From an uncultured Pelagibacteraceae bacterium (GTDB lineage: Bacteria; Pseudomonadota; Alphaproteobacteria; Pelagibacterales; Pelagibacteraceae): a DNA stretch of 64,000 nucleotides. A program made the translations under genes and the position numbers. Position 1 is the first letter of the stretch. Each line of letters begins with the position of its first letter. The notes beneath the pieces are model-generated. The model had not been told where the DNA came from. It searched no databases and saw only the letters and a list, made by a program, of their open reading frames with translations. The stretch spans positions 1 to 64,000 of the forward strand of contig CACAZL010000003.1 of NCBI GenBank assembly GCA_902536925.1, written 5' to 3'. Below, in pieces: positions 5,701 through 6,920 of this stretch.

Positions 5701-6920
5701 CTTACCTTTATACAGGCTCTACTAGTACAAGGAGTGGCTCTTCCATTAGTTATATCGCCAGTCCATGATCTAAAACCAGAACCATAATTATCCCACGACC
5801 AGTAACCAAATCCAAAATTTACTCCTGCTGTTAAGGAACTGTCCGTAACGATTGCTTGAATGGCTTCATGGGCACCCGTCATTCTTGTTCCAGCAGAGCC
5901 TCCAAATTCTTTATCAAAATTTAAATCCAGGTCAAATGCTTGAACACTTTGTTTATGATAATTGGCACTTAGCACTCTGTTGTTAACTTTATCTACGGTT
6001 ATACCCCATGCATAATACATTCTAACATTTCCAGTCTTTGATGCACCTCTTCCATACCTACCAACGTTTTTAATTGAGCTATAACCATTTCTTGATGAGT
6101 TTAATGTAACTTTAGCAACTCTATGATTTGTCCAATCATTACCATATAATATAAATTCATTTGATGGATGATGATCCATTCCATATGAGTAGTACCAATT
6201 GGATACAAAAATTCTGCTAGACCAATTTGTATTTATGCACCCGTTACTTCCAATGGTGTATCTGTAAAGGTAACGATAATATTGCGCATAAAAATGTTCT
6301 CTTTTATAATCTGGGGTCTGTCCATAATAACGACCGAAACGGTATAAATGACCAGAATAAGAGCAGTTTACTTTTGAAGGAGTTGCTCCAGATATATTGT
6401 ACGTCAACATACCCCCATTTCCGGCAAGATACAAAAAATTTTGAGCAATCGAAATTTGTCTTGGATTTCGTAAACTTACGTTCCAATCACAGTTGCCGTT
6501 TGAAAGATCAATCCTAAAAAATCTATGTTGATAATAAGAGGCAACATATAATTTATTATTATGCACTTTCATATTCATAGGATAATAAGATCTGCAATTA
6601 CCTGATCCTTTATAAATTCCATTACTTGCAAAGCTGGTATCACTTTTCGTTGTTGAATAAGTAAATTTTTTTATTCCACGTGTCCAATATTGACCGACAT
6701 AAACATCCCCACTACTATCTGTTGCAACACTGTAAGGATAAGAAAACCCATCTCCACTGATCGTTCTAACACTCATACTTCCAGACTTATCTAAAAGGAT
6801 TAATACATTAGCTGGAACATCCGATATTCCAGAACCAGGCGGTAAATTTTTTGCAAAACCATTATTTGAAAAAAAAGATAAAATTAAAATGATTTTTAAA
6901 ATTAAAAGTTTTAATTTCAT
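2772..6920 (-). CDS. pilY1: PilY1-like type IV pilus tip/adhesin protein with VWA domain
   Basis: VWA MIDAS DKSGS; PilY1 core motifs ([58 protein letters not shown]); downstream of minor pilins. Confidence 0.9.
   Translation of the reverse strand: [1382 protein letters not shown]

Follow-up and report, generated by a model that had tools for sequence, protein, structure and literature searches.

PilY1 is located at the tip of the type IV pilus and is thought to select what pili stick to. The SAR11 bacteria are very abundant and free-living and, to our knowledge, their pili have no known job. The closest described systems are the PilY1/PilC adhesins with an N-terminal VWA domain, such as PilY1 of P. 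aeruginosa, PilY1.3 of M. xanthus and PilY1 of Legionella, with which the SAR11 protein analysed here shares the signal peptide, the MIDAS pattern DxSxS..T..D, the C-terminal PF05567 domain and neighbouring genes of the fimU/pilV/pilW/pilX kind. It differs from all these adhesins in that a predicted NHL propeller breaks the VWA domain after the MIDAS strand. In other species, the position of PilY1 at the pilus tip and its role in pilus priming are known (PMC7541494), the tip being ordered with the minor pilins at the base, PilY1 above them and its N-terminal domain outermost (PMC7541494, PMC13190605). A 2026 survey of PilY1 proteins reported vWFA and DUF4114 as the sole N-terminal domains identified (PMC13190605), and our literature search for PilY1 together with the NHL repeat found no paper. 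The DUF4114 domain of Myxococcus PilY1.1 and PilY1.2 does represent, as in SAR11, a second ligand-type domain at the N-terminus, but it is another domain, for which no nesting in a MIDAS VWA has been described.

Other known systems resemble parts of this arrangement. The NHL propellers of TRIM71/Lin41, Brat, Thin and the PknD sensor have the same sequence family and fold as the SAR11 insert, but they are free-standing or terminal, whereas the SAR11 propeller would be extracellular, with both its ends in the VWA domain. Integrin alpha chains with an I domain are likewise adhesion proteins in which domain insertion has brought together a beta-propeller and a MIDAS VWA; there, however, it is the VWA that is inserted in the propeller. 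When this integrin-type nesting was looked for in SAR11 PilY1 the reverse was found, and the two arrangements, of independent origin, are comparable by analogy only. PilB of Streptococcus sanguinis is also a component of type IV pili whose MIDAS VWA serves adhesion (PMC8179133), but there the VWA is grafted on a pilin, no propeller is present and the protein is not a PilY1.

The pilY1 gene and its type IV pilus locus

The window, by which we mean the whole stretch of DNA analysed, comprises the first 64 kb of contig C3 from a SAR11 genome of 796 kb and 63% completeness; its features are collected in table 1. The open reading frame of 1382 aa is PilY1 by every feature tested, with a new N-terminal architecture. 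Its PF05567 match reaches 62.5 bits in the Pfam scan, against a cut-off of 28.1, and covers residues 707-861, while its best relative of solved structure is PilY1 of P. aeruginosa (3hx6, E 3.8e-16). The Pfam scan of the whole protein further returned weak matches to VWA (residues 412-529) and to an NHL repeat (59-75). Judging from the sequence, the locus has a complete-looking minor pilin/PilY1 setting: the order of the minor pilin genes and pilY1 is kept in about 45 loci, and two of the PilX_N/N_methyl matches of the four minor pilin genes lie below the Pfam cut-off.

Table 1. Position of pilY1, its domains and the surrounding pilus genes in the window
Feature	Position	Strand	Evidence
pilY1, type IV pilus tip adhesin, 1382 aa	2772-6920	-	PF05567 and PDB 3hx6 matches
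Signal peptide, Sec-type, residues ~1-23	6852-6920	-	Sequence read by eye
VWA strand beta1 and first MIDAS motif, residues 37-49	6774-6812	-	DSSP strand in both models
Predicted six-bladed NHL propeller in the VWA beta1-alpha1 loop, residues 51-343	5892-6770	-	Pfam NHL, PDB profile search, AlphaFold, Foldseek
Rest of VWA, residues 344-545, with MIDAS Thr429 and Asp466	5286-5891	-	Spliced VWA score, helix/strand order
C-terminal PilY1 region, residues 691-1382	2775-4850	-	PF05567, best stretch 707-861
185-aa secreted protein, between pilX-like gene and pilY1	6923-7480	-	Homologous genes at 57 SAR11 loci
Four minor pilin genes (PilX-, PilW-, PilV-, FimU-like)	7526-10254	-	PilX_N and N_methyl matches, conserved order
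T2SSE-family ATPase, PilT/PilU-like	10232-11308	-	PF00437, E 1e-48
pilM to pilC assembly genes	11376-18698	+	NCBIfam PilM, PilQ, GspF/PilC family
Secretin PilQ	14125-15705	+	NCBIfam, 302 bits, above cut-off

The 185-aa secreted protein had no Pfam match above cut-off; its place beside pilY1 is conserved, and it is a possible extra part of the tip complex. Directly downstream of pilY1 lies the gene for a repetitive surface protein of 882 aa (110-2758, minus strand), with homologues in 51 SAR11 loci, which is likely the autotransporter-type adhesin that has been found to adjoin the type IV pilus genes of SAR11 (PMC12636525). Elsewhere in the window, an ammonium transporter (20794-22944, plus strand) has a C-terminal extension with weak matches to signalling proteins (RssB, SiaA-like).

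The insert as an NHL beta-propeller

The original prediction had placed about 295 aa of NHL-like sequence directly after the first MIDAS motif of the VWA domain (window positions 5886-6770, equivalent to residues 51-345 of PilY1), and this reading has been borne out by Pfam, by comparison with solved structures and by propeller models. Scanned alone, the insert scores 21.5 bits with Pfam NHL (PF01436), the cut-off being 20. The inserts of L018, L055 and L082 (L and G numbers are our handles for loci and genomes) also exceed the cut-off with 24.3-25.9 bits, that of L071 reaches 26.1 bits, and the whole proteins of L165 and L168 score 31.2 and 37.4 bits, respectively; the PF01436 scan found no match in L074, L076 and L078. 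A profile of 32 SAR11 inserts (A3), compared with the solved structures of the PDB, matched the NHL domain of TRIM71 (E 5.6e-22), Thin (8e-21), Pizza7H (1e-19), Pizza6 (3e-17) and PknD (9e-14).

A propeller is predicted also by AlphaFold, in a model of residues 24-700 (39 sequences; mean pLDDT 83.7, mostly 85-97 in the insert) as well as in one of residues 33-548 (mean pLDDT 90.9, pTM 0.68); across the two models, most of the insert has a pLDDT of about 90-97. Both models have six blades of 3-4 strands each, at residues 64-93, 114-149, 153-184, 201-238, 248-286 and 304-340, the count being read from the DSSP strands of the models rather than from circular closure in the coordinates. Foldseek placed NHL/Pizza6 propellers on top for either model (E ~1e-12 to 1e-10), with TMt values of up to 0.80 against the six-bladed Pizza6, and the matches listed for the models were filled by propellers. 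On these models, residues 51-343 are predicted to be a six-bladed propeller of the NHL family. A chance or low-complexity origin of the insert is ruled out by its Foldseek, Pfam NHL and PDB profile matches. A search for a second NHL copy that could have served as donor found none at E up to 1 elsewhere in the same, incomplete genome, and comparison of the insert with PHROGs gave no match.

A VWA domain split at its MIDAS

The propeller interrupts the VWA domain right behind the MIDAS strand with DKSGS (residues 44-48); VWA sequence resumes at MTGAHEAIQ, from residue 347 on, with T429 and D466 as the MIDAS Thr and Asp. In alignments A1 and A5, of 39 and 37 sequences, D44, S46, S48, T429 and D466 are invariant, in agreement with the initial assignment of DKSGS as the first MIDAS motif and of the missing Thr and Asp to the region beyond the insert. 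Residues 346-545, lacking beta1, reach 19.4 bits with Pfam VWA, which is under the cut-off of 23.8, whereas splicing residues 24-49 before them raises the score to 26.7 bits, above it. In L165 and L168, the match to the VWA models begins at model position 17, directly past the missing first strand; just upstream of this match lie NHL repeats, preceded by a DxSGS strand. A profile of the spliced sequence aligned weakly with the VWA of ITIH4, the alignment being collinear across the junction.

The idea that the VWA domain would reassemble across the insertion agrees well with the model of residues 33-548, in which the domain is predicted to be complete, with its elements in Rossmann-like beta/alpha order: beta1 (37-44), the insert, alpha1 (346-358), beta2 (367-374), beta3 (402-409), two helices (412-422 and 431-442), beta4 (459-465), alpha4 (472-486), beta5 (489-495), alpha5 (501-513), beta6 (520-522) and alpha6 (525-544). 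As read from its residues, the MIDAS signature of the split domain is intact, and the metal site that it would form is putative. Because the propeller leaves and re-enters the VWA domain at the MIDAS-bearing loop, its tether must be at the metal-site edge of that domain; the pTM of 0.68 leaves their mutual placement uncertain.

Distribution among PilY1 proteins

How widely is this architecture distributed? In an order-wide sample of 197 genomes, some of which had helped build the insert profile, the PilY1 domain was present in 64, a match to the insert profile in 62 and both in 60. Four genomes had PilY1 but no profile match, and in one of them PilY1 is a fragment. G626 has a long insert after MIDAS which no NHL model recognises; G644 and G669 had been considered as insert-free relatives within SAR11 and were rejected as such, because they carry divergent but recognisable NHL-type repeats. 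A separate insert profile, for which only short-form proteins were used, also detects the insert in the longer forms of PilY1 (1400-1700 aa; 1e-30 to 1e-6), L058-L060 and L082 being borderline and L062 negative. The survey of homologues has thus upheld the insertion, but not its presentation as a peculiarity of one protein, since the propeller insert is an order-wide feature of SAR11 which is present in nearly every SAR11 PilY1 examined.

The divergent SAR11 PilY1 at L062:4312-7410 has lost the DxSxS motif (LADGRHW) and carries a 562-aa insert without detectable NHL similarity. Some SAR11 genomes, as exemplified by G628:C1 and G769:C2, have PilY1 genes in two or three copies, of which two or more bear the propeller insert.

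In a sample of the whole phylum, PilY1 was found in 77 of 299 genomes and a match to the insert profile in 38, and in the 37 matching genomes outside SAR11 this match never lay in the same frame as PilY1. About 50 other PilY1 proteins of Pseudomonadota, some of them cut at the N-terminus, gave no match to the SAR11 propeller profile at E < 0.01. L141 and L144 have no insert after MIDAS; L130, L132, L133 and L136 have, at the same site, unrelated inserts of roughly 170-290 aa, with no NHL match in L130, L132 and L136. The PilY1 proteins of L093 and L094, which belong to another small-genome family of alphaproteobacteria, are cut at contig starts before MIDAS and are thereby uninformative on the insert. 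Since other PilY1 proteins either have no insert or an unrelated one, inserts other than propellers being common there, the site of insertion varies in PilY1 at large, and within the sampled Pseudomonadota the NHL propeller looks confined to SAR11.

Rate and pattern of change

Among the protein of the window and 12 sequences closely related to it, pS is uniform over the length of the gene (0.18-0.22 in large regions), whereas pN is 0.080 in the propeller and 0.013 in the remainder of the VWA domain; dN/dS is 0.33 in the propeller versus 0.056 in the VWA domain, at similar pS. The propeller exceeds the VWA domain in dN/dS in all five clades, by 1.6 to 6.6-fold, and is the fastest-changing large part of PilY1. 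A second fast stretch lies inside the C-terminal PilY1 region, at residues 901-1020 (window 3861-4220, minus strand), with a dN/dS of 0.25 versus 0.05-0.07 around it and a length that varies between lineages.

Within the propeller, the bc and da loops, which share one face, are more variable than the ab and cd loops in four of the five clades, the L036 clade showing no face bias. In the clade of the window, the mean entropy is 0.49 for bc loops versus 0.10 for ab loops (permutation p ~0.005, for sites that are not independent of phylogeny); the ab loops are nearly frozen and every blade has a variable residue at or near its bc turn. A dN/dS above 1 is reached in no class, so that the fast change could derive from relaxed constraint and not from selection for new ligands. 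Given these values below 1, the phylogenetic linkage of the sites and the absence of bias in L036, the rate pattern supports, short of proof, selection on a binding face.

Identity with the window also changes along the gene. At the nucleotide level, L002 is 98.9% identical in the C-terminal region, where it is the closest sequence, and 91.7% in the propeller, where it is not; L022 is 97.3% identical in the propeller and 86.5% over residues 1021-1382. Such mosaic identity points to recombination, and suggests that the propeller may be swapped separately from the C-terminal part.

Proposed function of the propeller

The interpretation that we favour, with a probability of roughly 0.7, is that the propeller constitutes a variable recognition module on the conserved VWA scaffold of the SAR11 pilus-tip adhesin. 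No other large part of PilY1 changes as fast, which suggests that it is the propeller that determines what the pilus holds on to. With its conserved C-terminal domain, PilY1 would dock on FimU/V/W/X, the minor pilins of the neighbouring genes; its N-terminal MIDAS VWA would come to lie at the distal end of the pilus, of which the nested propeller would form the outermost body. VWA and MIDAS stay near-constant while the propeller, chiefly in the loops of one face, changes fast between lineages, and this would retune the binding of the tip to a surface, a particle polymer, DNA or another cell. We infer, by analogy with other species, that the propeller is displayed at the tip, and further that its variable face would bind the ligand and that force or metal state might be transmitted between propeller and MIDAS. 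Besides the dN/dS values below 1, the lack of face bias in L036 and the uncertain placement of the domains, it counts against the recognition reading that surface adhesion of SAR11 has reportedly not been observed in culture (PMC12636525).

Could the propeller be instead a spacer or plug, seated for example in the vestibule of PilQ, which has no ligand of its own and drifts under relaxed constraint? A dN/dS below 1 in all classes would suit such a part, and in M. xanthus the plug density seen at the secretin entry may stem from the N-terminal domain of PilY1.3 (PMC7541494). However, the propeller is retained, with its fold intact, in nearly every SAR11 PilY1 of two families, and its variability gathers on one face, in the bc and da loops, the ab loops being nearly frozen in the clade of the window; we consequently regard this alternative as unlikely.

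The variable face might also be selected by phages or grazers that target the pilus, its change reflecting escape rather than choice of ligand. Type IV pili are frequent receptors for phages, and the propeller appears to be uncoupled by homologous exchange from the other parts of the gene, both of which would fit escape, but the known pilus phages bind mostly the major pilin. The absence of a PHROGs match for the insert has little bearing either way, and on balance we find such an origin of the variability rather improbable.

An equally hard reading to favour is that the propeller covers the MIDAS as an on/off cap, freed by force or calcium, without binding any ligand itself. In favour of a cap, the beta1-alpha1 loop that holds the propeller adjoins the metal site, the invariant MIDAS residues imply that the metal site is still used, and the VWA domain of P. 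aeruginosa PilY1 is force-sensitive (PMC8806160). Yet a cap would not require diversification of one face, and the placement of the domains on which it depends is uncertain at a pTM of 0.68. Finally, it is very unlikely that the insert is merely the SAR11 version of the variable post-MIDAS loop of many PilY1 proteins, for, even if L130, L132, L133 and L136 carry inserts of roughly 170-290 aa in the same place, NHL matches are absent from L130, L132 and L136, as well as, at E < 0.01, from about 50 other PilY1 proteins, and L141 and L144 lack an insert: what the inserts share is their position and not their fold. These various readings overlap in part and so the likelihoods that we attach to them need not sum to one.

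If the propeller is the recognition module that we propose, it marks the region most likely to set pilus specificity in SAR11. A MIDAS-nested NHL propeller, kept across SAR11, constitutes a third type of N-terminal domain in PilY1 and a new architecture for the pilus tip. More tentatively, and with considerable doubt, the tip of the SAR11 pilus may bear a single ligand site composed jointly of the fast-changing propeller face and the invariant MIDAS, in mirror image of integrin alpha chains with their I domain. This site would diversify by lineage; if this were true, it would set what the most abundant bacteria of the ocean hold or take up.
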